Source of the DNA: a virus
Direction: 5' to 3' (one strand)
Virus record (IMG/VR): IMGVR_UViG_3300015164_000005
Location: 1 to 34,315 of that record
DNA: 34,315 nucleotides
In this document: positions 658 through 22,203 of the stretch, piece after piece
Numbering within the stretch: the stretch's first letter is position 1
Layout of the letters: every line of letters begins with the position of its first letter
The notes under the pieces: generated by a model
Seen by the model: only the letters and a program-made list of their open reading frames with translations
Told to the model about the DNA's origin: nothing
The model's database searches: none
Position numbers and translations under genes: made by a program

Positions 658-730
658 TAAAATAGCGAAGCCGATTGGTGTTTGCGCACCTACCGGCTTC
701 TAATCACCTGCAATAACTGGAGTATCACAG
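658..730 (+). promoter_or_regulatory. Folded leader of the first HNH gene (leader A)
   Basis: A TAAAAT box at 658-663 starts 9 bases after the terS stop. It is followed by a hairpin: GAAGCCG (667-673) pairs with CGGCTTC (694-700), and inside it GGTG (677-680) pairs with CACC (687-690) around a 6-base loop. A second CACC, within CACCTGC at 705-711, could compete for the same GGTG. GGAG then precedes the ATG at 731. The TAAAAT box, outer stem, GGTG/CACC stem and the CACCTGCAATA segment recur at 18656-18728 before another HNH gene. The TAAAAT could be a -10 element, but no matching -35 is evident. Function is inferred. Confidence 0.6.
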
Positions 731-1897
731 ATGACTGAGGCGGATTGTAGCGCGTGCGCGCAGTGTGGGAAAACGCTTGAAAGAGGGAAGACCACAGGAA
801 GAAAGAAAAAATATTGTAAGCCATGTTTAGCAGACCGTAAGAAGAAACGACAAAAGGGCAAACCACAACTAGCAACAGTAAATTTATCCAAAGCAGTTAT
901 AGAATTAAAGTGTGGTCATTGTAAAGTGGCGTTTCTGTCGAATGTAGAGCGAGGGTTTTGCAGCAAAAGATGCTATTGCAAGGATTACAACAAAACTGGG
1001 CTTCGTGATTTTGTATGCGCGCAATGTCATTGCACATTTTCATCAGAGCGCAAACGAACATATTGCGGTAAGGCGTGCCTCGAAGCGGTTCTTGTATTAA
1101 GAACGGAAGCCAACAGGATAAAGAATGGTACCAATACATTCGCAGGAGCAATAGAGGCGCGCCGCCAGCGGTCAAAATTCAACTTCAACTGCGAGCACTG
1201 CGGTAAAGCATTCCACAGGGTGCCGGGCGGCCACAACATCGAGAACGGATCGCGCACCAGATGGTGCTCGATGCGTTGCAAGATGGACGCTACTGTTAAG
1301 CGCCGTGAAGACAATAGAGTACAGCCATTCAGCAAGTATTTCGCGCGATTTTGTGCAGAATGCGAAAAACCATTCGCTGCGCTGGCCGAGAAAGTATTGA
1401 TTTGTAAGGAATGCAAGCGGCGTCGTACCCTAGTTATTCGCGCGCCATGTGAACAATGTGGTGGGCCGATCACAGGCAGAGGCAAGAAGTTCTGTTCTAA
1501 GAAATGCTATCGCTTAAGTCCAAATTTCATAGACGGTAGGGCGTCTGCGCGTAAAGCCGGAAAACTAAAGCGACGTGGTGCAGTAGTTACCAATTTCAAT
1601 CCGATAGTTGTATTGGAACGTGACGGATGGCGCTGTCAAATATGCGGAGTCTCTACGCCGAAGTCAAGGCGCGGCACGAATCACCACAATGCGCCAGAAA
1701 TCGACCATGTTCGCCCTATCAGCAGAGGCGGTGAACATTCGATGGAAAATACCCAATGCGCGTGTCGAGCATGCAATGGTCTTAAATCGGATGTTCTAGT
1801 CATAGGCCAGATAGGATTGTTCTCGGCGGATGCTATAGCAAAAGCTGGCATTAGAAAGAGAAGCGTGAAGAAGTGGGAAAAAGTGGCGGCAACCTGA
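731..1897 (+). CDS. HNH endonuclease with six tandem zinc ribbons
   Basis: This 388-residue protein has two parts. Residues 9-259 hold six cysteine quartets of the form Cx2C...Cx2-3C, at about 9-32, 61-81, 96-116, 154-183, 208-228 and 240-259, each a likely zinc ribbon. Residues 292-356 form a classical HNH nuclease domain: 'RDGWRCQIC', then 'EIDHVRPISRGG' with the D326-H327 pair, then 'CRACNGLKS'. The zinc array probably binds DNA, as in free-standing homing endonucleases. Its ORF splits terS from terL and overlaps the terL start by 25 bases. HNH proteins beside terminases can also assist packaging (HK97 gp74), so that role cannot be excluded. The long zinc array and the leader shared with a second HNH gene favour a mobile endonuclease. 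Confidence 0.85.
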   Translation: MTEADCSACAQCGKTLERGKTTGRKKKYCKPCLADRKKKRQKGKPQLATVNLSKAVIELKCGHCKVAFLSNVERGFCSKRCYCKDYNKTGLRDFVCAQCHCTFSSERKRTYCGKACLEAVLVLRTEANRIKNGTNTFAGAIEARRQRSKFNFNCEHCGKAFHRVPGGHNIENGSRTRWCSMRCKMDATVKRREDNRVQPFSKYFARFCAECEKPFAALAEKVLICKECKRRRTLVIRAPCEQCGGPITGRGKKFCSKKCYRLSPNFIDGRASARKAGKLKRRGAVVTNFNPIVVLERDGWRCQICGVSTPKSRRGTNHHNAPEIDHVRPISRGGEHSMENTQCACRACNGLKSDVLVIGQIGLFSADAIAKAGIRKRSVKKWEKVAAT

Positions 1898-3408
1898 AGC
1901 TATCACCGCGCGCCAAGCGCAATGTTGAATGGGTGGAAAAATTCTGCCGCGTGCCAGAAGGCCGCCTAATCCGCAAGCCAGTAACGCTCAGTACGGCGCA
2001 ATTGACGTGGATGGAGATGATCTACGGCAGTTCGACGCGGATGTTCATATGCTCGCTTCCAAGAAAAAACGGCAAAACTTCGATCAGTGCGATGCTGGTG
2101 TTGCTGCACTTGGTAGGCCCAGAAGCCGTACCGAACGGACAGCTTTACAGCACGGCGCTTTCCAGAGATCAGGCGTCGATCCTGTTCGCGCTAGCCGCCA
2201 AAATGGTACGGATGAATCCAGACCTTTCATCCTACGTGACCATCCGCGACACGGCGAAGCAACTGCTTTGCCACGAGTTAGGCACAGTATATCGTGCGCT
2301 CAGTGCCGATGCGTCAACGGCTTACGGTCTCTCGCCAGTGTTCACGGTTCACGATGAGTTGGGACAGGTAAAAGGGCCACGCTCAGAACTGTACGAGGCG
2401 ATAGAAACGGCGAGTGCTGCGCAAGAGCATCCGCTGTCGATAGTTATCAGCACGCAGGCACCGACTGATGCAGACTTGCTATCGATGTTGATCGATGACG
2501 CGATCACCGGAACCGATCCGCGCATCAAGTGCGTGCTCTATGCTGTAGATAAGGACGATGACCCGTTCGATGAAAAAGTGCTGGCGGCAGCACAACCGAA
2601 CTGGCACTTGATGAATCACGAGGAAGTGTTCAAGACGGCGGCGGATGCGAAACGCATGCCGTCTATGGAAGCCTCATTTCGGAACTTGGTCGGCAACCAG
2701 CGCGTTGAAGCCCGCTCCCCATTCATCTCACGTTCCGTTTGGATGGACAACACCGGATCGCCGCTGGATGACCTCGAAGGACTAGACGTATATGCCGGTC
2801 TCGATCTTTCCGAAACATCCGACTTGACTGCCCTCGTGCTCATTGCTCGGCACAATGGCAAGTGGACAGTAAAGCCGATCTTCTGGCTGCCGGAACAAGG
2901 ATTGGCCGAGAAGTCGCGCAAGGATCGCGTGCCTTATGACCTGTGGGCACAGCAGGGATACCTGCTGACGACGCCGGGTGCTGCGATTCGGTATGAGTAT
3001 GTCGCAGAATATCTGCGCGGTATCTTCGACCGGCTGAACATCGTAAAGCTGGCGTTCGACCGCTACAACATGAAGCATCTCAAGCCGTGGCTGCAACAGG
3101 CCGGATTTACGGATGAAGAGTTGGAGAAGTTCGAGGAATTCGGGCAGGGCTATATCTCAATGTCGCCTGCGTTGCGGAGTTTGGAAGAATTGCTGCTCAA
3201 CAAGCAACTGGAACATGGCGCGCATCCGGTGCTGACGATGTGCGCGGCGAATGCGGTTGTGATTAAAGACCCGGCTGGGAATCGGAAACTGGATAAGTCG
3301 AAGTCAACCGGGCGCATAGACGGCATGATTTCTTTAGCGGAAGCCATCGGAGTTGCAGGTACAATTATTGCCGAGCCGAAAATAGAATTCCAGGCATTTT
3401 TTCTTTAA
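1873..3408 (+). CDS. terL: Phage terminase large subunit (Terminase_1 type)
   Basis: This 511-residue protein is the packaging motor. The N-terminal ATPase has a Walker A-like LPRKNGKT at residues 62-69, a Walker B ending in D161-E162 ('TVHDELG') and a coupling motif 'STQAP' near 193-197. The C-terminal RNase H-like nuclease carries the expected acidic residues D311 ('GLDLSETSD'), D396 ('AFDRYNM') and D483 ('GRIDGMISLAEA'). It appears full length and intact. The start chosen is GTG at 1873, inside the end of the HNH gene, with a purine-rich AGAGAAG upstream. 'AKRNVEWVEKFCRVPEG' shortly after is typical of the family N-terminus, so the true start is close. It ends in TAATG with the next gene. 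Confidence 0.95.
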   Translation: MGKSGGNLKLSPRAKRNVEWVEKFCRVPEGRLIRKPVTLSTAQLTWMEMIYGSSTRMFICSLPRKNGKTSISAMLVLLHLVGPEAVPNGQLYSTALSRDQASILFALAAKMVRMNPDLSSYVTIRDTAKQLLCHELGTVYRALSADASTAYGLSPVFTVHDELGQVKGPRSELYEAIETASAAQEHPLSIVISTQAPTDADLLSMLIDDAITGTDPRIKCVLYAVDKDDDPFDEKVLAAAQPNWHLMNHEEVFKTAADAKRMPSMEASFRNLVGNQRVEARSPFISRSVWMDNTGSPLDDLEGLDVYAGLDLSETSDLTALVLIARHNGKWTVKPIFWLPEQGLAEKSRKDRVPYDLWAQQGYLLTTPGAAIRYEYVAEYLRGIFDRLNIVKLAFDRYNMKHLKPWLQQAGFTDEELEKFEEFGQGYISMSPALRSLEELLLNKQLEHGAHPVLTMCAANAVVIKDPAGNRKLDKSKSTGRIDGMISLAEAIGVAGTIIAEPKIEFQAFFL

Positions 3409-3695
3409 TGGACTTCCTCAAACTCTTCAACAAGCAGCCGACACCTGAGCCTGAAAAAGCCTACGCCTACGAGATTCAACTTGGCCCGCGCGACTGGCTA
3501 ATCGTCTCGACCTCCAAGGAATGCTCGGACGAAGAAGAGGACGACATTAGATACACGTTTTCCGAATTAGAGAACGCCGGACGCAAGGTGATAGTTCTAA
3601 GCGATAGGTTCAAACTGTCGATTGTGCGGAGGGGCGATGTAGTCCATGTGGATGGGAATGGCGATAATTTCACTTACACGCTGGACGAGATTTGA
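3408..3695 (+). CDS. Small acidic protein downstream of terL, function unknown
   Basis: This 95-residue protein begins at the ATG that overlaps the terL stop by one base (TAATG), which implies translational coupling. It has a proline/glutamate-rich N-terminus, a very acidic stretch (DEEEDD, about residues 42-47) and alternating short strands that suggest a compact alpha/beta fold. I do not recognise a family. Its position between terminase and capsid suggests a head or packaging accessory, which is inference only. Confidence 0.7.
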   Translation: MDFLKLFNKQPTPEPEKAYAYEIQLGPRDWLIVSTSKECSDEEEDDIRYTFSELENAGRKVIVLSDRFKLSIVRRGDVVHVDGNGDNFTYTLDEI

Positions 3696-3715
3696 ACTGG
3701 TTTGGTGTAACACGA

Positions 3716-3937
3716 TCACCGTTTCACGAGTCGTGTATAGCGCGGGCATATACCAAACGAGTTTACCCAATACTGGGTGTCGACCATAGGATCATTGTAG
3801 TCAACATTGCATTTCCCGTCAGTGTCTTCATCGCCGAGGTAGATACTTGCCGCTTTATAGTGCTCGCACTTGTCGCAGTACATGCCGGTAGCGGCGCGTT
3901 CTTCCTTGGTGGAAATTCTATAGCCTGTAGGTGTCAT
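3716..3937 (-). CDS. Small cysteine-rich protein on the opposite strand
   Basis: This is the only credible minus-strand gene in the window, 73 residues from an ATG at 3935-3937. An upstream TTG at 3974-3976 would add 13 residues but overlaps the promoter candidate. Two cysteine pairs are visible: 'CDKCEHY' near residues 20-26, and single cysteines near the centre ('GKCNVDY') and C-terminus ('FGICPRY'). Zinc binding is possible. The + strand reading of this segment gives an ORF with poor composition, so minus is preferred. Its lone orientation and position beside a promoter and a terminator resemble a moron, an independently expressed accessory gene. No family recognised. Confidence 0.6.
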   Translation of the reverse strand: MTPTGYRISTKEERAATGMYCDKCEHYKAASIYLGDEDTDGKCNVDYNDPMVDTQYWVNSFGICPRYTRLVKR

Positions 3938-4048: not shown

Positions 4049-5998
4049 ATGAACCGCGCGTTCAGTACGTTCTCGATAAAAAGTATCAATGAAGATCAGC
4101 GGATCATCGAAGGCATCGCAAGCACGCCTTCGACGGATCGCGTGGGCGACATTGTTGAGCCAATGGGCGCTAGCTTTGTCTTGCCGATCCCGTTTCTGAT
4201 GGGGCATGGCAAAGGAGTAGAAGATTCGGTCGGCCATGTTATCAGCGCCAATGTAACCCCGGAAGGAATTTTGATACGCGCTCAAATCGAGAGCGATCCG
4301 GTGCTACCTGAGCTGGACAAGGCGTGGGCACGGCTGAAAAAGGGTTTGGTGCGCGGCCTTTCCATCGGATTCAAATCAATTGGCAAACCGACTCCCATAA
4401 CTGGCGGCGGGCTTCACTTCAAGCAGTGGTCTTGGCTTGAGTTATCAGGAGTGGTGATCCCGGCAAATGCAGACGCCTCAATTACTACCATCAAGGCAAT
4501 TTCCGACGACTTTCTCGCCGCGTTCGGTAAAGAGAAAGTCGCCGTCGTTCGCCTTGGCAAATCTCCCGGCGCTTCGGGAACAACTAAACAACTCCCGAAA
4601 GGAACAATCATGGCTAAGACTACTGCTGAGACGATCAGCGGATTTGAAACGAAACGAGCTGCCGTCATTGGCAGCATGACAACCATCATGGAGAAATCCG
4701 CCGAAGACGGCGCTACTCTCGATGAGGAACAGACCACGCAGTACGACGACGCTGCTACGGAACTGAAAACCATCGACGCGCATTTGGATCGGCTGAAGAA
4801 GCATGAGCAGATCATGCTGACGAAGGCTACGGTGATTACGCACGAGAATACGAGCACGCAGGAAAGCGGTAGCAATGCGCGCGGCGGCATTATCACCGTT
4901 AAATCTAATCTGCCGAAAGGAACAGCGTTCGCGCGTTACGTCAAAACGCTCGCAGCAGCCGGCGGGAATCTGATGCAGGCCGCGGAGATGGCGAAGAGGT
5001 ACGACGACACCACGCCTGAAGTGGGATTGGTGCTTAAGGCAGCGGTCGCCGCTGGTACGACCACCGATACGGCGTGGGCCGCGCCGCTGGTGCCGTATCG
5101 GATTATGCAGAACGAGTTTATCGAACTGCTGCGTCCGCAGACAATCCTCGGTCGCGTGCCAGGGTTGCGCATGGTTCCGTTCAACATCAAGATGCCAGCG
5201 CAAACTGGTGGGTCAACGGTCAATTGGGTCGGACAAAATGCGCCCAAGCCGGTTTCCGCTCTGGCGTTCACAAGCTTGACGCTCGACTTTACCAAGGCGG
5301 CAGGAATCGTGGTTATCTCGGAAGAGTTGGCACGTCTGTCGACGCCTTCGGCGGAAGCGATTGTTACAGCCGATCTTACTGCGCAGATGGCTCAATTCCT
5401 CGATATTGCGTTTGTCGATCCATCGAAAGCCGCCGTACCTGGTGTGTCACCGGCATCTATCACCAATGGTGCGACTACGTTTACGGCGAGCGGGAGTGAC
5501 GCAAACGCGTTACGCGCTGACGTGAGGAAGTTGATCGGAACATTCCAAGTTACCAACATGAGCACGGCTGGGTCGGTGTGGATTATGACCGAGACACAGG
5601 CGACTGCGATTGCGATGATGGTAAATGCGCTCGGACAGCCTGAGTTTCCAGGACTCACGGCGCAAGGCGGCACGTTGTTTGGACTGCCTGTGATTACGTC
5701 AGAAAACGTGGTGCAAACGACAGCCGGCACGCCGCCAGTTACCACGGCAGGGATTATTCTTGTCAAGGCAAGCGAGATTCTTATGGCCGACGATGGACAG
5801 GTGACAATCGACATCAGCCGCGAGGCATCGTTGCAGATGGATGGTGCTCCGACCAATCCTCCGGGCGCGTCTACTGTGATGGTCTCCCTTTGGCAGCAAA
5901 ATCTTGTGGGCATTCGTTGCGAGCGGTGGATTCACTTCGTCCGTCGGCGCCCCGGTGCTGTCGCCTACATCAGCGACGCTAATTACGTCACTGGTTGA
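4049..5998 (+). CDS. Fused prohead protease and major capsid protein
   Basis: This 649-residue protein joins two genes that are often separate. Residues 1 to about 165 resemble an HK97-type prohead protease (peptidase S78): 'IIEGIASTPSTDRVGDIV', a candidate catalytic histidine in 'PFLMGHGKG' and serine in 'VRGLSIGFKS'. Residues from about 188 resemble an HK97-fold capsid protein. A predicted coiled-coil delta domain spans about 195-260, followed by the mature shell ('PLVPYRIMQNEFIELLRPQTILGRVPG', 'FTKAAGIVVISEELARLS', 'LFGLPVITSENV', C-terminal 'RCERWIHFVRRRPGAVAYI'). The ATG at 4049 has only a weak GGG upstream. A well-placed ribosome site precedes Met188, so the capsid part may also be made alone. 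Fusions of this kind are known in other phages. Confidence 0.93.
   Translation: MNRAFSTFSIKSINEDQRIIEGIASTPSTDRVGDIVEPMGASFVLPIPFLMGHGKGVEDSVGHVISANVTPEGILIRAQIESDPVLPELDKAWARLKKGLVRGLSIGFKSIGKPTPITGGGLHFKQWSWLELSGVVIPANADASITTIKAISDDFLAAFGKEKVAVVRLGKSPGASGTTKQLPKGTIMAKTTAETISGFETKRAAVIGSMTTIMEKSAEDGATLDEEQTTQYDDAATELKTIDAHLDRLKKHEQIMLTKATVITHENTSTQESGSNARGGIITVKSNLPKGTAFARYVKTLAAAGGNLMQAAEMAKRYDDTTPEVGLVLKAAVAAGTTTDTAWAAPLVPYRIMQNEFIELLRPQTILGRVPGLRMVPFNIKMPAQTGGSTVNWVGQNAPKPVSALAFTSLTLDFTKAAGIVVISEELARLSTPSAEAIVTADLTAQMAQFLDIAFVDPSKAAVPGVSPASITNGATTFTASGSDANALRADVRKLIGTFQVTNMSTAGSVWIMTETQATAIAMMVNALGQPEFPGLTAQGGTLFGLPVITSENVVQTTAGTPPVTTAGIILVKASEILMADDGQVTIDISREASLQMDGAPTNPPGASTVMVSLWQQNLVGIRCERWIHFVRRRPGAVAYISDANYVTG
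4597..4612 (+). promoter_or_regulatory. Internal ribosome binding site and start for stand-alone capsid
   Basis: GAAAGGA at 4597-4603 lies 6 bases before an in-frame ATG at 4610-4612, residue 188 of the fusion. This is a better Shine-Dalgarno than the one at the fusion start. The Met falls at the protease/delta-domain boundary, where a separate capsid gene would begin ('MAKTTAET'). Confidence 0.55.
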
Positions 5999-6380: not shown

Positions 6381-6480
6381 TAAAATAACACTGTTGCGGA
6401 TAGGGAAACGCGTCCCGAAACGTTGGCTGCCTGAGCCAACTTCCGCAGCTCCCAATCAGGCGTCACGTCAGGAGTGATTT
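6381..6480 (+). promoter_or_regulatory. Three-way-junction leader of the GIY-YIG gene
   Basis: TAAAAT (6381-6386) begins 8 bases after the previous stop. Downstream, TGCGGA (6395-6400) pairs with TCCGCA (6442-6447) and encloses two hairpins: GGGA (6403-6406) with TCCC (6413-6416), and TTGGCT (6423-6428) with AGCCAA (6434-6439). Just before the ATG at 6481, TCAC pairs with GTGA around the GGA of the Shine-Dalgarno. The layout of box, fold and hidden ribosome site parallels leaders A and B, although the sequence differs. Control of endonuclease translation is the likely role. Confidence 0.55.
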
Positions 6481-7191
6481 ATGGCTATCTATATTTACGG
6501 GCTTGTAGACCCGATTTCCGGTGTCGTGCGATATGTCGGCAAATCTAACGACCCAGAGTGGAGACTGTATGGTCACCTGCAACTAGCCGCTTCAGGAAAG
6601 AAGAAACAGAACTCAGGGATATGGTTAAGATCTCTGAAAGATGCTGGTCTTAAACCAGAAATGATAATTTTAGAAACGCTCAAGGATGGTGACGATTGGG
6701 CCAGTGTCGAGCGGCGCTATATAGAAAATGCCAATAGTTATGGTTGGCAATTGACAAATATGGTGCAAGGCGGTCGTGGTGGAGGCTATCTAAAGCCAGA
6801 AGATAAAGAAGAATGGCTTGGTCGCGTTATAGACTCTCTGAGTACACCGGAAGTAAGAAAAAAAATATCTGACGGAGTGATTAGAGCCAACATGCGGCCT
6901 GAGATGAAAGAAAATCATCGGCAGCGCCGTATAAAAATGTGGGCCGATCCTATCTATAGAGAGAGGATGGCTAATAAGGCGCAAGAAGCGAACAAACGCC
7001 CGGAAGTAAAAGCGCGACGCGTGGCGAGTGGTAAAAAAACTATGGTGACAAAAGAGGCGCGTGCCATAGTCGCAGAAAAGCTAAAAGCGTACTACGCAAC
7101 AGAAGAAGGTCGGCAAAACAAGATAACGACATCCAACGATGCAACGAAACGGGCGAAAGCCGTAGAAAAAGCAAAAGCGTTTGTGGGCTGA
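6481..7191 (+). CDS. GIY-YIG homing-type endonuclease, 3' end frameshifted
   Basis: The 236-residue reading frame starts with a GIY-YIG nuclease domain: 'YIYGLVDP' and 'VRYVGKS' (residues 4-22), a conserved Arg/Tyr/His segment near 28-32, the catalytic glutamate E77 in 'SVERRYIE', and 'LTNMVQGGRGG' at 91-101. Residues from about 115 hold basic repeats like the DNA-binding modules (NUMOD3-like) of phage homing endonucleases. The frame stops at 7189-7191, but the +1 frame continues the same repeat ('LWAEPEYRAM', parallel to 'MWADPIYRER' earlier) to a TAA at 7307-7309. One extra base, probably in the A5 run at 7166-7170 or A4 run at 7173-7176, therefore truncates about 39 residues. The nuclease domain is intact. 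A terminator overlaps the ancestral stop. Confidence 0.88.
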   Translation: MAIYIYGLVDPISGVVRYVGKSNDPEWRLYGHLQLAASGKKKQNSGIWLRSLKDAGLKPEMIILETLKDGDDWASVERRYIENANSYGWQLTNMVQGGRGGGYLKPEDKEEWLGRVIDSLSTPEVRKKISDGVIRANMRPEMKENHRQRRIKMWADPIYRERMANKAQEANKRPEVKARRVASGKKTMVTKEARAIVAEKLKAYYATEEGRQNKITTSNDATKRAKAVEKAKAFVG

Positions 7192-7386: not shown

Positions 7387-8805
7387 ATGCAGATGCGTCT
7401 TTTTGGCCGCGATCTGACTATAACCAAGGCAGCGCCGCCTACCGGCATGTCCGTTCCGGCATTCTCAGGTTCCGGCGGCTGGTTCGGCTCCATCCGCGAA
7501 GGCTTCAGCGGCGCGTGGCAGCGAAATGTAGAAGTGGAATCGCGCGAGAACATCCTTGCGTTCTCGGCGGTGTATGCCTGCGTGAGCCTTATCGCTGGCG
7601 ACATTTCCAAGCTGCGCATCATGCTCACGCAGGAGACGGATGCGGATGTGTGGGAGGAATTCGACACGCCAGCATTCAGCCCGGTCTTGCGCAAGCCGAA
7701 CGGGTATCAGACGCGCATCCAGTTCATCGAACAATGGATTACGTCCAAGCTCTTGCACGGGAACGCCTGCGTCTACAAAGAGCGCGATGGCCGCGGCGTA
7801 GTGTCCGGCCTGCATGTGCTCGACAGCCGCCGTGTAAAGCCTTTGGTAGCCGACGATGGCGGCGTGTATTACCAGTTGAGTCGCGACACTATCTCGCAAG
7901 TAGGAGACGGTGTAATCGTTCCTGCGAGCGAGATCATTCATGACCGGATGAACTGCTTCTATCACCCGCTGGTCGGCATCAGTCCGATCTCGGCGTGCGG
8001 GGCGTCGGCTACGCAGGGGATAAGGATTCAGGCAAACTCGGCCAAGTTCTTCGAGAACATGAGCCGTCCGTCAGGGCAGCTGACAGCACCAGCACGGATT
8101 GATGATGAAACGGCAGCACGGTTGAAGCGCGAGTTTGAGGCGAACTTCAGTGGCGGTAATCTTGGGCGACTGTTTGTTAGCGGTAATGGACTTAAATATG
8201 ACTCGATGTCAATCCCTGCGCAGGACGCGCAGTTGATTGAGCAGTTACGCTGGACAGTAGAGGATGTTGCGCGCACATTCCACGTTCCGCTGCACAAACT
8301 AGGCAGCGGGCAGCCGACGTTGAACAACATCGTTGCACTGAATCAGGATTATTACTCGCAAACATTGCAGACGCTTATCGAGGCGGTGGAATGCCTGTTG
8401 GATGAAGGGCTTTCGCTTCCATCAGGTTATGCGACTGAGTTTGATTTGGATGGGTTGCTGCGGATGGATCCGCTGTCGCGGGCAGAGGCTAATGAGAAGG
8501 CTACCCGCGCCGGGATCATGACGCCGAACGAAGGTCGGTTGAGTATGAATCTGCCGCCTGTTGTGGGTGGGGATACACCCTACCTCCAAATTCAAAATTT
8601 TGCGTTAAGGGATTTGGCTAAACGAAGTGAATTAGCCAATCCATTTGTGACGACGCCTGTTCCTGCTACGCCATCTGTACCATCACCAACGGCTAACGAT
8701 ACTCAAACTGGCAAGGCTCTTGCGATCAATATAGAGGATGAACTTGAAGCCATAATGTTGCGCGCCAAGACGGATTTGAGGAAAGAATTGTGTCTACCGT
8801 ACTGA
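7387..8805 (+). CDS. Phage portal protein, HK97 family
   Basis: This 472-residue protein matches HK97-family portals, which form the dodecameric DNA gateway of the capsid vertex. Recognisable segments are 'ENILAFSAVYACVSLIAGDIS' near residue 54, 'RIQFIEQWITSKLLHGNACVY', 'IIHDRMNCFYHPLVGISPISACG', 'FFENMSRPSGQL', 'LRWTVEDVARTFHVPLHKLG' and 'LNQDYYSQTLQTLIEAVE'. The C-terminal 60 residues are proline/threonine-rich. The ATG at 7387 follows a GGAAG. Normal portals lie close to the capsid gene; here the GIY-YIG element separates them. An HNH gene begins inside its last 16 bases. Confidence 0.95.
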   Translation: MQMRLFGRDLTITKAAPPTGMSVPAFSGSGGWFGSIREGFSGAWQRNVEVESRENILAFSAVYACVSLIAGDISKLRIMLTQETDADVWEEFDTPAFSPVLRKPNGYQTRIQFIEQWITSKLLHGNACVYKERDGRGVVSGLHVLDSRRVKPLVADDGGVYYQLSRDTISQVGDGVIVPASEIIHDRMNCFYHPLVGISPISACGASATQGIRIQANSAKFFENMSRPSGQLTAPARIDDETAARLKREFEANFSGGNLGRLFVSGNGLKYDSMSIPAQDAQLIEQLRWTVEDVARTFHVPLHKLGSGQPTLNNIVALNQDYYSQTLQTLIEAVECLLDEGLSLPSGYATEFDLDGLLRMDPLSRAEANEKATRAGIMTPNEGRLSMNLPPVVGGDTPYLQIQNFALRDLAKRSELANPFVTTPVPATPSVPSPTANDTQTGKALAINIEDELEAIMLRAKTDLRKELCLPY

Positions 8806-9524
8806 AAAGTTGCACGCGTTGCCATGTAGCGAAGCCGCTGGCAGAGTTCCATATTAACCATAGGATAACGACTGGTACAGGGTCATCACGCGGTGGCCTT
8901 GGTGTTATTGCGCAATGCAAGGCGTGCCGTAGCCATCGATCCGACCCGACGCTGCGAGGCAGGAGAGAGCAGATTGCGGTTTTCGCGGCGCAGCAGTTAA
9001 AAAGGTGCGGTACCTGCAAACAAGGATTGCCACACTCGGAATTTCATAAGCGCGTGAGATCAGATGATGGTCTAGCGTTCACGTGTAAGAAATGCGTGAA
9101 TACAAATAGCGCGAAATGGCGGGAGGCTAATCCTGGTGCGCATGATCGGTGGTATTTTGAAAACAAAGAACACAAATTAGCTTACGCTACGCAATGGCGA
9201 TCTGAGAATGTAGAAATGCGTAAAGTAGCTAACGCCCGGTGGGCTAAAGCCAATCCCCACAAAGTCAACGCGCTAATCGCCAAGCGCACAGCGGCCAAGT
9301 TCCGGGCCACGGTATCGTGGTCAAGTCAAGACGCTATCGAAGCCATCTATGCCGAGGCGCTGCGCCTATCGCGCGAGACTGGAATCCGACATGACGTAGA
9401 CCACATAGTCCCACTTCAAGGAAAGACTGTCAGCGGTCTGCATTGGGAAGGAAACCTGCAAATCCTGACGAAGACTGAGAACTTATCTAAGTCCAATCGT
9501 TACTGGCCTGACTCCCCGACATGA
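8790..9524 (+). CDS. HNH endonuclease between portal and fibre genes
   Basis: This 244-residue protein starts at a GTG inside the portal 3' end, preceded by GAGGAAAG. Two zinc ribbons are visible, C8/C11/C43/C46 and C73/C76/C99/C102. A basic helical linker follows, with repeated 'W(R/A)xxNP' motifs at about 110-160. The C-terminal HNH-type nuclease has 'HDVDHIVPLQGK' (D204-H205), 'GLHWEGNLQILT' and 'NLSKSNR'. It ends in ATGA with the next gene, so it fills the gap between two virion genes exactly. Unlike the other mobile endonucleases here it has no folded leader and would be co-translated with portal mRNA. A free-standing homing endonuclease is most likely. Confidence 0.87.
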   Translation: MSTVLKSCTRCHVAKPLAEFHINHRITTGTGSSRGGLGVIAQCKACRSHRSDPTLRGRREQIAVFAAQQLKRCGTCKQGLPHSEFHKRVRSDDGLAFTCKKCVNTNSAKWREANPGAHDRWYFENKEHKLAYATQWRSENVEMRKVANARWAKANPHKVNALIAKRTAAKFRATVSWSSQDAIEAIYAEALRLSRETGIRHDVDHIVPLQGKTVSGLHWEGNLQILTKTENLSKSNRYWPDSPT

Positions 9525-18655: not shown

Positions 18656-18728
18656 TATAATAGCAAGGCCGACTAGGTGTAACTAGCACCGTAGCCGGCC
18701 TCTAACCACCTGCAATAGGAGTTGCAAA
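18656..18728 (+). promoter_or_regulatory. Folded leader of the third HNH gene (leader B)
   Basis: TATAAT (18656-18661) begins 17 bases after the gp10-like stop. AGGCCG (18666-18671) pairs with CGGCCT (18696-18701). Inside, CTA (18673-18675) faces TAG (18692-18694) and GGTG (18676-18679) pairs with CACC (18687-18690). CACCTGC (18707-18713) repeats the CACC and could compete for GGTG. TGCAA (18711-18715) can also pair with TTGCA (18722-18726), placing the TAGGAG ribosome site in the loop. The outer stem has different bases from leader A at paired positions yet still pairs, which supports a real RNA structure. Likely a translational control element. Confidence 0.6.
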
Positions 18729-19217
18729 ATGGCTGATCAGAATTTTAGCGCAGAGTTCGCGCGCGCGACGTTCCAATATTATCCAGATACCGGAGTATTA
18801 ATCCGTCTTGTGCATTCAGGTAATGCCAAAGCTGGATCAATTGCCGGATGCGTTGCGAGCAATGGATATGTAATTATCAAGGTAAACGGGCGTGCTTATA
18901 AAGCGCATAGGTTGGCGTGGCTCATTATGATTGGTGAATGGCCGGTAGGAGATATTGACCACATAGACAGAGACCGTGCCAATAATAGGTTTTCCAACCT
19001 ACGGCGCGCAACTACGCGGGAGAACACACAAAATGTGGACGCGAAGAGTAAAAACATAGCAGGGTTGCGCGGGGTGTCACCGCACGCTAGTAAGTGGCGT
19101 GCACGGATAAGAATAGACAATCGACTCAAGCTTCTTGGCTCGTTTGATACGCCAGAATTGGCGCATGCAGCGTACATAGAAGCCAAACGTCGATTGCATC
19201 CATTTGGAATGCTGTAA
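18729..19217 (+). CDS. HNH endonuclease with AP2-like DNA-binding domain
   Basis: This 162-residue protein is a typical small phage homing endonuclease. An N-terminal beta segment leads into the HNH core ('AHRLAWLIMIGEWP', then 'DIDHIDRDRANNRFSNLRRAT', with D-H at about 75-76 and the trailing Asn). Residues of about 110-157 form an AP2-like DNA-binding fold ('GVSPHASKWRARIRIDNRLKLLGSFDTPELAHAAYIEAKRR'). It lies between the gp10-like gene and the patatin gene and follows leader B. It is a close relative of the remnant at 20774-21093. Confidence 0.88.
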   Translation: MADQNFSAEFARATFQYYPDTGVLIRLVHSGNAKAGSIAGCVASNGYVIIKVNGRAYKAHRLAWLIMIGEWPVGDIDHIDRDRANNRFSNLRRATTRENTQNVDAKSKNIAGLRGVSPHASKWRARIRIDNRLKLLGSFDTPELAHAAYIEAKRRLHPFGML

Positions 19218-19233: not shown

Positions 19234-20226
19234 ATGAAGAAACGTATAGCCCTAGCCTTACAAGGCGGAGGCTCGCACGGTTCGTGGACGTGGGGGGTAC
19301 TCGATCGCCTACTTAAAGAAGAAAACCTATCAATAGAAGCCATCAGCGGAACATCAAGCGGCGGGATGAATGCCGCAGCCCTATCCTACGGCATGGCGAT
19401 AGGCGGCGCAGACGGGGCCAGAGACACGCTCAGTGCCTTATGGGAAGGCGTCTCGAAGGCAAGCCCGCCGTGGTCGGCGTGGATGGCCTCTATGGCCGCA
19501 GTCGTTTCTCCGTATTCGTATCCGATGTATTTCAACGCCTTGGCCGAAGTAATCGAAGGCGTTATCGAGTTCGCAGTAGTGCGCGCCTGCGAGAAACCAA
19601 AGATTTTCATCTGCGCGACAGATGTAAAGACGAATAAACGGAAAGTCTTCGGCCCAAAGGAAATCACGATCGACGTGCTGCTCGCTTCTGCTTGCCTGCC
19701 GCAGATATTCCGGGCTGTAGAGATCGACGGTGGAGCATATTGGGACGGCGGATATATGGGCAACCCTGTACTGTCGCCGCTGCTGCCGCACTGTACGGAT
19801 GTAGTTATCGTTCAAGTGAATCCGATGCTGCGGCCTGAGATTCCACGCACGGCGCGAGAGATCACGGATCGCGTGAACGAAATCACGTTTAACTCGTCCC
19901 TCGTGCATGAGCTGATGACTATCAATACGATAAATCGCCTGCTGGAATACGGGGAGCTGGTAAGCGCGAGATTTCACCCTGTATTTTTCCATCGGATTGC
20001 ACCAGCGCCGGCCATTACCGGCGCCAAGAGCGATACCTCGTGGAAATATCTGCTGACGCTACACGCCGCTGGATGGAAAGCGGCGGACGACTGGCTGCGC
20101 GATCCGAACATGTTCGGCAAGGTAGGCACGGCCTCATCGGTAAACGTATTCAATGACTTGCTCGCTCCGCTTGCCGTGGAATATGTTGGCCCGGATAGCA
20201 AAAATAAAATGAATTCCGGGACATGA
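19234..20226 (+). CDS. Patatin-like phospholipase
   Basis: This 330-residue protein has all the key parts of a patatin-fold serine lipid hydrolase. These are an oxyanion-hole loop 'GGGSHGSW' (11-18), the nucleophile elbow G39-T-S41-S-G43 and the dyad aspartate D171 in 'DGGYMGNP'. No signal peptide or membrane segment is seen, so it should act on membrane lipids from the cytoplasm. The family is common in bacterial chromosomes; such enzymes include toxins and defence effectors such as CapV. A strong GAGGTGAGGG lies before the ATG, 16 bases after the HNH stop. It interrupts the usual neck gene order, so it is accessory cargo. Roles in lysis, superinfection exclusion or host benefit are all possible; none is proven by sequence. 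Confidence 0.9.
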   Translation: MKKRIALALQGGGSHGSWTWGVLDRLLKEENLSIEAISGTSSGGMNAAALSYGMAIGGADGARDTLSALWEGVSKASPPWSAWMASMAAVVSPYSYPMYFNALAEVIEGVIEFAVVRACEKPKIFICATDVKTNKRKVFGPKEITIDVLLASACLPQIFRAVEIDGGAYWDGGYMGNPVLSPLLPHCTDVVIVQVNPMLRPEIPRTAREITDRVNEITFNSSLVHELMTINTINRLLEYGELVSARFHPVFFHRIAPAPAITGAKSDTSWKYLLTLHAAGWKAADDWLRDPNMFGKVGTASSVNVFNDLLAPLAVEYVGPDSKNKMNSGT

Positions 20227-20232
20227 CTTACG

Positions 20233-20376
20233 ATGATAGATGACAGCAACGCGCTTCGGGCTAAATGGGAGCGTCTGCATGCGGAGCGCGACAATACTGG
20301 ACAGCGCGTCGTTAATGCGTGCATCGTACTGTCCGTCGTCATAGCAATAACCATCCTCTGCACAATACTATGGTGA
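20233..20376 (+). CDS. 47-residue single-helix membrane protein
   Basis: The ATG is 6 bases after the patatin stop. The product has a charged N-terminal half ('DDSNALRAKWERLHAERDN') and one strongly hydrophobic helix ('VVNACIVLSVVIAITILCTI', about residues 26-45) that reaches the C-terminus. It ends four bases into the next gene's second codon region, so it is co-translated. Its tight link with the phospholipase suggests it anchors, regulates or cooperates with that enzyme. A small holin-like role is an alternative. Confidence 0.6.
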   Translation: MIDDSNALRAKWERLHAERDNTGQRVVNACIVLSVVIAITILCTILW

Positions 20377-20741
20377 GCGCAGAACAGAAAACCATTGATG
20401 CGCTGAAGGCATCAATCGCACTCGCAGCGCTAGTCGGCAGCGGAGATCAGCTTCGCGTGTTCCCGGACGAGGCGGATCAAAGCGCAGTCAAGCCGTACAT
20501 CGTATTTGATCGCGTCGGGGCTGCACCGGAGACCTATCTGGACTTCGCGCCAGCGCCGGTGAAGGTGATGATGCTGATTACGATTTGGGCGGATAGCCGG
20601 ATGGTGGCGGCGGCAGTTGCGGATGCAGTGGCAGATGCAATGAGAGAAGCGTTTCACATGCTGACGGATCGGACGGGGAGCGATGTGCCTGATATTCGTG
20701 AGTTTGCGGAAGCGCTTTCGTTCGATATTTGGGAGTATTAA
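20370..20741 (+). CDS. Tail completion protein, DUF3168-like
   Basis: Starting at the ATG 20370 (a GTG at 20373 is possible) this gives 123 residues. 'LAALVGSGDQLRVFPDEADQSAVKPYIVFDRV', 'ITIWADSRMVAAAVADAVADAM' and a C-terminal 'FDIWEY' fit the DUF3168/gp17-like tail completion family, which caps the tail tube at the neck. It normally follows the gp10-like gene directly. Confidence 0.8.
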   Translation: MVSAEQKTIDALKASIALAALVGSGDQLRVFPDEADQSAVKPYIVFDRVGAAPETYLDFAPAPVKVMMLITIWADSRMVAAAVADAVADAMREAFHMLTDRTGSDVPDIREFAEALSFDIWEY

Positions 20742-20757
20742 CGTATTGATTAGATGG

Positions 20758-21093
20758 TAAAATCGTAGCGAAGCCGTCTAGCATGGCTATTAGCCACGGG
20801 CGCATGGCCGGATAAGTTTCTCGATCACATAGACGGCAACAGAGCAAACAATCGCTTTGAAAACCTACGTCAAGCAACAAAAGCGCAAAACTCACAGAAT
20901 GGATACAAGGCGAATAGCAACAATGTATCAGGGTGTCTTGGTGTTACTTGGAACAAGCGAGACGATGTATGGCAATCACGCATCATGATAGATAACAAAT
21001 CTATATCGCTTGGATCATTCAAAACACGTGATGAGGCTAAGACGGCATATTTGCTCGCCAAAAGAAGGGTGCACGACTTTGGCTGTATCTAAA
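20758..21093 (+). pseudogene. Decayed HNH endonuclease with truncated leader
   Basis: TAAAAT (20758-20763) and TAGCGAAGCCG (20766-20776) match the start of leader A, then the sequence jumps directly into the middle of an HNH gene. From 20775 it reads 'RLAWLLATGAWPDKFLDHID', homologous to residues 61-80 of the HNH protein at 18729, with the rest of the nuclease core and the AP2-like domain after it. The start codon, about 60 N-terminal codons and the right arm of the leader hairpin are missing. CCG at 20774-20776 fits both sides of the junction. An A5 run at 21060-21064 shifts the frame by one base just before the ancestral end, whose stop is TAA 21091-21093. No usable in-frame start remains. 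Confidence 0.75.
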
Positions 21094-21115
21094 CGACAGC
21101 CAAAGTCTTGCGAAC

Positions 21116-21140
21116 AAAGCCACTTTCGAGTGGCTTTTTT
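21116..21140 (+). terminator. Intrinsic terminator with UUCG loop before the tail tube gene
   Basis: AAAGCCACT (21116-21124) pairs with AGTGGCTTT (21129-21137) around a TTCG tetraloop and is followed by more T. It is among the most stable terminator forms. It ends 25 bases before the tail tube ATG with no evident promoter between them. Confidence 0.88.
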
Positions 21141-21165
21141 ATTGTCTAACTAAAAGGAAAGAATC

Positions 21166-21816
21166 ATGGCACGAACATTAGTGAACGGCGCGTCCGTCGC
21201 AATCGCAGGAACCTATGGAACGCCGTCTGCAATGTCGGCTATTACAAATGCACTTCCGGCGGTGGCGACGTTGGCACCGGCGCATGGCGTAGTGGTAAGC
21301 GATCTCGTGGAGATCACGTCAGGATGGCAACAATTAGACGGGCGCATTGGTCGTGCGTCCGCCGTCGCTACGAATGACATTTCGCTTGAGACAATAGATA
21401 CGACCGACACTACCAGGTATCCGCCTGGAACCGGAATCGGCAGCGCGCGCGAGATTTTGACGTGGGCTGATATTGCGCAGATCGTGGATTTTAAACAAGC
21501 CGGGGGCGTGCAACAGTTTCTCAGCTATCAATATTTGTCGCAAGATGCGCAGTCAAAAATACCGACATTCAGGGATGCGGTAGATTTTACTCTGGTGACG
21601 CACGATGATGTCGCCCTGGCGCACTACGCCATCGTCCTAGCCGCCCAAAACACAGCCACACAGCGCGCGTTCCGCATCACCACGCGCGACGGCAAGAAGT
21701 GGTACGGCACCGGGTACTGGTCGATCCAGCAAACGCCAGAATTCGCCATCAACGACGTTCTCAAGCGCACGATCAACCTCACGGTTAGCGGCACGATCAC
21801 AGGCTACCTGAGTTAG
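21166..21816 (+). CDS. Major tail tube protein
   Basis: This 216-residue protein follows AAAAGGAAAG. It is beta-rich ('VEITSGWQQLDGRIGRASAVATNDISLETIDT', 'AFRITTRDGKKWYGTGYWSIQQTPEFAIND', 'TINLTVSGTITGYL'), the pattern of siphovirus tail tube subunits. Its position directly before the frameshifted chaperone and tape measure genes supports the call. Confidence 0.85.
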   Translation: MARTLVNGASVAIAGTYGTPSAMSAITNALPAVATLAPAHGVVVSDLVEITSGWQQLDGRIGRASAVATNDISLETIDTTDTTRYPPGTGIGSAREILTWADIAQIVDFKQAGGVQQFLSYQYLSQDAQSKIPTFRDAVDFTLVTHDDVALAHYAIVLAAQNTATQRAFRITTRDGKKWYGTGYWSIQQTPEFAINDVLKRTINLTVSGTITGYLS

Positions 21817-21819
21817 TCG

Positions 21820-22203
21820 ATGACCCTCGACGACCTCAAAGCCGCCGTAGAGTCCTCCAGGCGCTTCACGCACACCGTTGACGGTCGCACATTCACGCTG
21901 CGCATGCCGACCAGTCACGAAGTAAAAATGGCCTACGCGCGAGCGCGCACCGGAACTAACGATCATCTGGCCGCATTTTTCCAATCGCAGCGAGAGATAG
22001 CAGAGCGCGCCGTCACAGGCTGGACCGAGGTGATCGAGACCGATCTGGTGCCGGAAGGCGCGAGTGCGCCGCTTGCATTCGACGCATCGCTCGTGCCGTT
22101 GCTATTCGATGTGCATGCGGAGTGGCAAATGGCTATATCGGACGCTATCGACAAGCGCATCGCCGAGCGAGAGAAAACGCAAGAGGCCGCTGCAAAAAAC
22201 TGA
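21820..22203 (+). CDS. Tail assembly chaperone, short form (gpG-like)
   Basis: This 127-residue protein, three bases after the tail tube gene, begins 'MTLDDLKAAVESSRRFTHTVDGRTFTLRMPTSHEV' and ends at a TGA directly after the slippery sequence. In lambda-like phages the equivalent gpG and its frameshifted extension gpGT coat the tape measure protein and recruit tail tube subunits. The location between tube and tape measure genes, with a frameshift site at the end, is diagnostic even though the sequence is divergent. Confidence 0.88.
   Translation: MTLDDLKAAVESSRRFTHTVDGRTFTLRMPTSHEVKMAYARARTGTNDHLAAFFQSQREIAERAVTGWTEVIETDLVPEGASAPLAFDASLVPLLFDVHAEWQMAISDAIDKRIAEREKTQEAAAKN

Follow-up and report, generated by a model that had tools for sequence, protein, structure and literature searches.

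Degenerating genes for HNN-AP2 endonucleases have been described in the Xanthomonas oryzae phages Xp10, OP1 and Xop411 and, as hegG and hegJ, in T5; they occur in intact and in truncated stages, and that paper reports no conserved sequences in their flanks (PMC2248197). A second precedent is I-TevIII of the T4 nrdB intron, an HNH homing endonuclease inactivated by a large deletion, whose intact version is found in RB3 (PMC2988022). Ribosome-binding sites are sequestered by hairpins in the T4-type genes for I-TevI, I-TevII, I-TevIII, segB and mobE, and a hairpin precedes the ribosome-binding site of seg43(25). This structure is described as forming on early and middle transcripts while late transcripts escape it, which serves timing (PMC2988022).

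We analysed a viral stretch of 34,315 nucleotides (IMG/VR record IMGVR_UViG_3300015164_000005, positions 1 to 34,315; hereafter the window), which carries an HNH-AP2 remnant among its tail genes (Table 1). As far as the published account of the HNN-AP2 genes goes, the family found here resembles them in joining HNN to AP2, in quasi-conserved HRLAWLL and WP boxes and in being free-standing and dispersed; it differs in that the remnant keeps the HNH core and a probable AP2 domain but has lost its start and first 60 codons and has the end of a leader attached (PMC2248197). I-TevIII, as described, is likewise a phage HNH gene killed by deletion, yet it is intron-encoded whereas the remnant is free-standing with a promoter-like leader (PMC2988022). 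With these precedents the remnant reads as the ordinary decay of a free-standing putative homing endonuclease. We propose that an HNH-AP2 cassette entered the gap between the tail-terminator and tail-tube genes and that a deletion of ~240 bp then killed the gene, a reading to which we assign a probability of roughly 80%.

Table 1. Positions in the window of the remnant, its neighbours and the leaders of the same type.
Feature	Position	Strand	Basis
Leader A, intact, before the zinc-finger HNH gene 731-1897	664..739	+	R1, 66.4 bits; training sequence
Leader B, intact, before the intact HNH_3 gene B, 18729-19217	18662..18737	+	R1, 55.1 bits; training sequence
Tail-terminator gene (Tail_completion_gp17), left neighbour of the remnant	20388..20741	+	Pfam, PHROGs
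Extended -10-like element TGG-TAAAAT, left end of the leader cassette	20755..20763	+	Sequence; like 658-663 and 18656-18661
TAGCGAAGCCG, leader left end, holding the 5' arm of the first hairpin (GAAGCCG)	20766..20776	+	Match to leader A
Putative deletion junction, leader arm ...AGCC(G) joined to Arg codon CGT (20775-20777), codon 61 equivalent	20774..20777	+	Alignment
HNH_3 (HNN) and AP2 endonuclease remnant, codon 61 equivalent to stop	20775..21092	+	Pfam, PHROGs, translation, alignment
Inverted repeat over the remnant stop	21071..21111		Repeat search, fold; just before the tail-tube terminator
Terminator-like hairpin, probably the phage's own, between remnant and tail-tube gene	21116..21137	+	Terminator scan
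Major tail-tube gene, right neighbour of the remnant	21166..21816	+	Pfam, PHROGs

The open frame at 20769-21089 on the plus strand is stop-free and 107 amino acids long; the interval 20766-21092 translates as a stop, RSRLAWLLATGAWPDKFLDHIDGN...AKRRVHDFGCI and a second stop. Residues 3-42 match Pfam HNH_3 (PF13392, 8.2e-15) at profile positions 5-45, and alignment with intact relatives places the DHxDGN...NN...NL core of HNH_3 in the remnant. The match to AP2 (PF00847, 8.5e-6) reaches 26.4 bits, under the curated cut-off of 33.3 bits; gene B, though intact, scores less (19.5 bits). In PHROGs the remnant covers positions 161-262 of phrog_99 (7.9e-40), of which intact gene B spans 109-262, and it also matches the shorter profile phrog_4578. 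Its first homologous residue is residue 61 of gene B, to which it is 51% identical, and of the same-family gene at locus L145 in a related phage. Because the Pfam and PHROGs matches begin in mid-profile, the remnant is best read as the back part of a decayed, free-standing HNH-AP2 (HNN) endonuclease gene.

An in-frame TAG at 20766 stands before the frame, and from there to 20985, a position already past the catalytic motif, the frame holds no ATG, GTG or TTG. Lacking a usable start codon, the remnant appears dead as a gene, with start and N-terminus lost, much as the sequence-only reading had supposed when it called the gene an HNH remnant. The HNH core and AP2-like region do lie in an undisturbed frame, and an in-frame ATG stands at 20754, upstream of the TAG, so one could imagine a short HNH-AP2 protein whose translation begins at a non-standard codon or passes through the TAG. 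We consider this very improbable, given the missing start codons, the loss of the leader's Shine-Dalgarno sequence and the homologues. The remnant protein found 57 loci, one of which is cut by a contig end and was left out; none of the other 56 (45 distinct) has the short N-terminus, and in each the frame, taken at its longest possible N-terminus, reaches a possible start at least 49 codons earlier. A conserved homologue with the same short N-terminus had been named in advance as evidence against decay, and this set holds none. Against a genome collection the protein gave three weak matches (uncultured Clostridia, Gemmiger and Bacillus), and 20300-21900 has no relatives at the DNA level among GenBank phages.

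The 3' end of the remnant is intact. It had been said to be frameshifted in a run of five A, which proved mistaken: the frame is continuous to the TAA at 21090-21092, and 20758-21092 contains no five-A run, the longest being four. The C-terminus, ...KRRVHDFGCI, parallels HEFGTI (L145), HPFGTL (L302, a second locus of the same related phage) and HPFGML (gene B). With no such run, an unbroken frame and a normal C-terminus, decay by a 3' frameshift is rejected, and since the remaining frame and C-terminus have not yet decayed, the sequence suggests that the gene was lost recently. Across the remnant stop codon lies a near-perfect inverted repeat of 16 nt, 94% complementary, with 9 nt between its arms. 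L145 and L327 have an equivalently placed counterpart of the terminator-like hairpin that follows, and inspection by eye shows one in many HNH-free relatives.

The position given by the sequence-only reading, between DUF3168-like and tail tube genes, agrees with the Pfam and PHROGs assignments of the flanks as tail-terminator and tail-tube genes. Two close relatives, IMGVR_UViG_3300012668_000143 (loci L145, L302 and L304) and IMGVR_UViG_3300011227_000014 (L303 and L305), have the same gene order in the region and are 79% identical to the window in a patatin-like protein and 66% in the tail tube. In both, 78 bp separate the tail-terminator from the tail-tube gene and hold a terminator-like hairpin but no HNH gene; these gaps are letter-identical, so the two count as one lineage. 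The remnant thus sits at a site that is empty in these relatives, as an insertion would; either the lineage of the window gained this copy or the close relatives lost it. The patatin-like phospholipase gene (window 19234-20226, PF01734, 1.9e-22) lies among the tail genes and is kept in both close relatives.

A wider survey of the slot took in 129 loci, 128 with a plus-strand tail-tube relative, of which 119 extended 600 nt or more upstream; several contigs are represented repeatedly, and the distinct upstream sequences number 85. An HNH gene is absent from the slot in 118 of the 119 and present in one, L327. There an HNH_3 gene (3377-3877, 166 aa), with a full N-terminus and intact by length, lies 9 bp behind a Tail_completion_gp17 gene; a terminator-like hairpin and a tail-tube gene come after it, and Pfam confirms the two flanking genes as tail terminator and tail tube. 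The slot is therefore open to the family of the remnant. The intact relative that had been called for at this locus was thus found only in a distant form, 36% identical and with no leader detected by the covariance model R1 (below); an allele of the remnant site with intact gene and leader was not found among the loci searched.

Upstream of the remnant lies the left end of a leader, TAAAAT-CGT-AGCGAAGCCG. The 11-mer TAGCGAAGCCG is an exact match to the left end of leader A (663-673), so the identity claimed from sequence alone is confirmed. The window has just one more exact copy, at 8827, where it falls within the coding part of a different endonuclease gene; this is probably coincidence and makes the bare 11-mer weaker evidence than it looks. 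The combined motif TA[AT]AAT-N0-3-AGC[AG]A[AG]NCC has exactly three sites in the window (658, 18656 and 20758), two of them preceding endonuclease genes and the third the remnant, and none of 300 dinucleotide shuffles contains it; the motif was defined only after the three sites had been seen. Compared with leader A, two extra bases (CG) stand between the -10-like hexamer TAAAAT and TAGCG, and a consensus scan gave no -35/-10 pair at this leader end. The 3' arm of the first hairpin, the second hairpin, the Shine-Dalgarno sequence and the start codon are missing; no leader hairpin appears in the folded remnant RNA, and R1 gives no match there.

Several points weigh against a cassette with a later deletion: the search met no allele of this very site with gene and leader intact, the close relatives with the empty slot amount to a single lineage, the gene at L327 has no R1-detected leader and is only 36% identical, CG is added after the -10, and the 11-mer also occurs in unrelated coding sequence at 8827. 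The left part could instead be native intergenic DNA that is leader-like by chance, the 5' end of the HNH gene having been lost by a deletion into the flank. The empty site of the relative that carries L145 contains ...GTAACCGTAGC..., near the place of the window's GTAAAATCGTAGC, so that part of CGTAGC could be native flank; the apparently coincidental 11-mer at 8827 points the same way. We nevertheless hold native flank to be quite unlikely, because the full motif (-10, spacing and AGCGAAGCC) stands in the window only before endonuclease genes, with none in 300 shuffles, and because the L145 leader begins with the same TAAAATAGCGAAGCCG before a same-family gene. The L145 cassette, with its leader start TTTAAAATAGCGAAGCCG, full two-hairpin leader, ATGGCT and a gene with ...YAHRLAY, offers the best picture of what the ancestor of the remnant would have been.

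The earlier estimate that about 60 codons and most of the leader are gone also stands: the joint lies at the codon 61 equivalent, and the missing stretch of leader and gene measures 237 bp on the gene B template or 245 bp on the L145 template. If the lost codon was His (CAY), as it is before Arg in gene B and five other intact relatives aligned, the partners of the joint share CG or CCG, 2-3 nt; with equal base use, random joints share at least two bases in 16% of cases and at least three in 5%. Microhomology at CCG, as proposed from the sequence, is thus possible but unproven, no intact allele having been found at this site to give the ancestral letters.

Under the cassette-and-deletion reading, a free-standing cassette comprising a promoter-like element, a two-hairpin leader and an HNH-AP2 putative homing endonuclease gene would have entered between the tail-terminator gene and the terminator preceding the tail-tube gene. 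A later deletion of ~240 bp would have taken out most of the leader and the Shine-Dalgarno sequence as well as the gene's start codon and N-terminal 60 codons, so that codon 61 now follows directly on the 5' arm of the first leader hairpin. We infer a single event, its size and this order; the truncated, startless gene with its intact 3' part, the leader left end before it and the empty site in close relatives are observed. The joint could also stem from illegitimate recombination between two cassettes, for example leader A and another HNH gene. Three leaders of one type in one genome supply the material, and L302 has a leader-led shortened HNH gene in tandem with an intact one, but both parts of the remnant stand in the expected order at a single site and a deletion takes fewer steps, which makes such recombination an unlikely origin. 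At L302 (4189-4983, minus strand) the intergenic slot corresponding to that of gene B is taken by two HNH units reading the other way, an HNH fragment shortened to 77 residues and preceded by a leader (18.8 bits) and, directly behind it, an intact-looking HNH_3 gene; this slot seems to have been invaded repeatedly.

Read from its 5' end, the leader runs from a -10-like element with an adjoining hairpin through UAACCAC to AUGGCU, with a predicted second hairpin enclosing the Shine-Dalgarno sequence. R1 was built from 13 intact leaders, A and B included. A first scan with TATAATN{0,2}AGCRAN{18,44}YTCTAACCAC gave 13 loci, of which 11 immediately precede frames that look endonuclease-like by eye, some of these having later been scanned against families; L080 and L083 have no hairpin and were judged chance. 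A second pattern without the -10, AGCGARN{16,46}YTCTAACCACN{8,34}ATGGCT, matched at least 120 phage stretches, 80 of which were examined as loci. The first hairpin folds in 75 of these (73 by the script rule, and L079 and L081 outside it), and L098, L131, L148, L149 and L160, which fail the rule, were judged chance. R1 scores L098 at 49.3 bits despite the failed rule, so this locus may be real and its protein was kept in the set described below.

Covariation in the first hairpin is strong. Among the 13 leaders, seven of the nine first-helix pairs change on both sides, with 27 two-sided-change cells against 9.1 (sd 2.1) in shuffles and 3-6 with the partner slid. Matches to the model number 81 (64 distinct rows); a few are probably chance, and the alignment is fitted to the model. 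They hold 162 such cells against 53 (sd 5) in shuffles and 14-47 slid. Because the scan pattern already dictated the three outermost pairs as well as the CCA/UGG helix, only helix 1 pairs 4 to 9 are independent of it, and these account for 138 of the 162. The second hairpin is suggestive only: a Shine-Dalgarno-like run lies in or overlaps the predicted loop in 40 of 49 distinct inner stretches, and stability against shuffles has a mean z of -1.0, with 9 of 49 at p 0.05 or less.

Rfam 15, run over the window, 25 leader loci and the chance locus L149, gave no match at gathering level on a leader; outside the window, the search went up to E 1 for 12 sources and used the gathering level for 14. 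Below threshold, L171 resembles R1162-like (E 0.008) and, on the other strand, FinP (E 0.05). A match at L124 was set aside as below cut-off, as was Phe_leader at window 21056-21143 (35.2 bits, cut-off 55); sR43 at 8076-8128 was also set aside, and Betaproteobacteria-1 (L125) and int-alpA (L100) exceed their cut-offs but lie away from the leaders. A literature search for the letters CTAACCAC returned nothing relevant by title among the matches listed. Relative to Rfam and the literature searched, the leader is apparently undescribed; a survey that reportedly presents 224 candidate structured RNAs falls outside that scope.

Among 74 distinct leader-led proteins, Pfam recognises HNH in 13, HNH_5 in 13, HNH_3 in 12, Endonuclease_7 in seven and Cpn10 in five (overlap possible). 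This set comes from the matches listed and leaves out the chance loci L080, L083, L131, L148, L149 and L160, L087 and L088, and two frames under 20 codons. PHROGs agrees on the endonucleases, and many of the other proteins are, by eye, small CxxC proteins. Only M1 and A2 are invariant across the 74, ATGGCT having been part of the scan pattern. An HNH-specific element is rejected by the GroES-like (Cpn10, 5/74), small CxxC and other genes that also follow the leader in other phages, and among the 57 remnant-protein loci only two have an R1-detected leader, both training sequences. The suggestion that this leader type was attached to a third HNH gene therefore stands as to the three endonuclease-linked sites of the window, and falls short in that the type is not bound to HNH genes. 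A leader before such unrelated genes would be a shared expression module, not a mark of homing endonucleases.

Many second-scan leaders, above all those before CxxC proteins, have no TATAAT-like element in front. Eleven before small CxxC proteins (L111, L113, L115, L116, L127, L129, L132, L135, L138, L156 and L167) lack any TATAAT-type element and share CTATCGTTAA just before AGCGAAA, perhaps a phage-specific promoter. Twelve regions around HNH genes of named phages were searched with R1; one matches weakly, in Synechococcus phage Yong-M3-232 (L298 293-367, 19.4 bits), with the apical GGTGCTACCAACACC present and UAACCAC absent, and the other matches stay under 10 bits. What follows the Yong-M3-232 match is a reading frame with a short helicase-like start and, joined to it in frame, an HNH part; the next gene is annotated as a helicase. 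Within the window, the GIY-YIG gene 6481-7191 has a structured leader of its own (6388-6480), which ends in ATGGCT, is unmatched by R1 and is predicted to form a three-way junction and then a hairpin with the Shine-Dalgarno sequence in the loop. At 4569-4618, inside the frame 4049-5998, a ribosome-binding-site-like run and ATGGCTAAG mark a possible internal start, with a weak match (11.4 bits) to the 3' half of the leader.

As far as the T4-type hairpins are described, the leader is like them in placing RNA structure where ribosomes bind on genes for phage homing endonucleases. It differs in that (i) its promoter-like -10, where seen, precedes both hairpins and its Shine-Dalgarno sequence lies mostly in a predicted hairpin loop; and (ii) it carries conserved AGCGAR, UAACCAC and AUGGCU and is common to unrelated genes, non-endonucleases included (PMC2988022). 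With the promoter-like element before both hairpins, the early/late mechanism of T4-type phages appears unlikely here. HEARO, the HNH endonuclease-associated RNA and ORF, is likewise a structured RNA beside an HNH-type gene; unlike it, the leaders have no gathering-level Rfam match.

We regard it as reasonably probable that the leader is an undescribed, widespread structured 5' UTR of phages, serving as an exchangeable expression module before acquired genes. Such a module would begin, in some cases, with an extended -10; a hairpin of ~12 bp (AGCGAR...YUC) would follow where the transcript starts or directly beside that point, and after it would come the linker UAACCAC and the second hairpin. 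The placement of the transcript start follows from the -10-like element, which, where present, stands directly before AGCGAR. The second hairpin would present the Shine-Dalgarno sequence in its loop and partly hide AUGG, the CCA of the linker pairing with the UGG of the AUGG start. A hairpin at the 5' end of an mRNA commonly delays its decay. The module may thus provide mRNA protection and a controlled start for several unrelated families of homing endonuclease and for GroES-like and small CxxC genes; the window would then record three such attachments within a single phage, that of the remnant being seen after its loss.

The remnant offers a clean case of how a free-standing putative homing endonuclease of a phage dies: the start and the leader are lost, the catalytic part can still be read, and the slot is empty in close relatives and filled by an intact gene in one phage further off. 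It matters more as a pointer to the leader, a single covarying RNA structure that links phage genes otherwise unrelated and whose effects on transcript stability and translation are directly testable.
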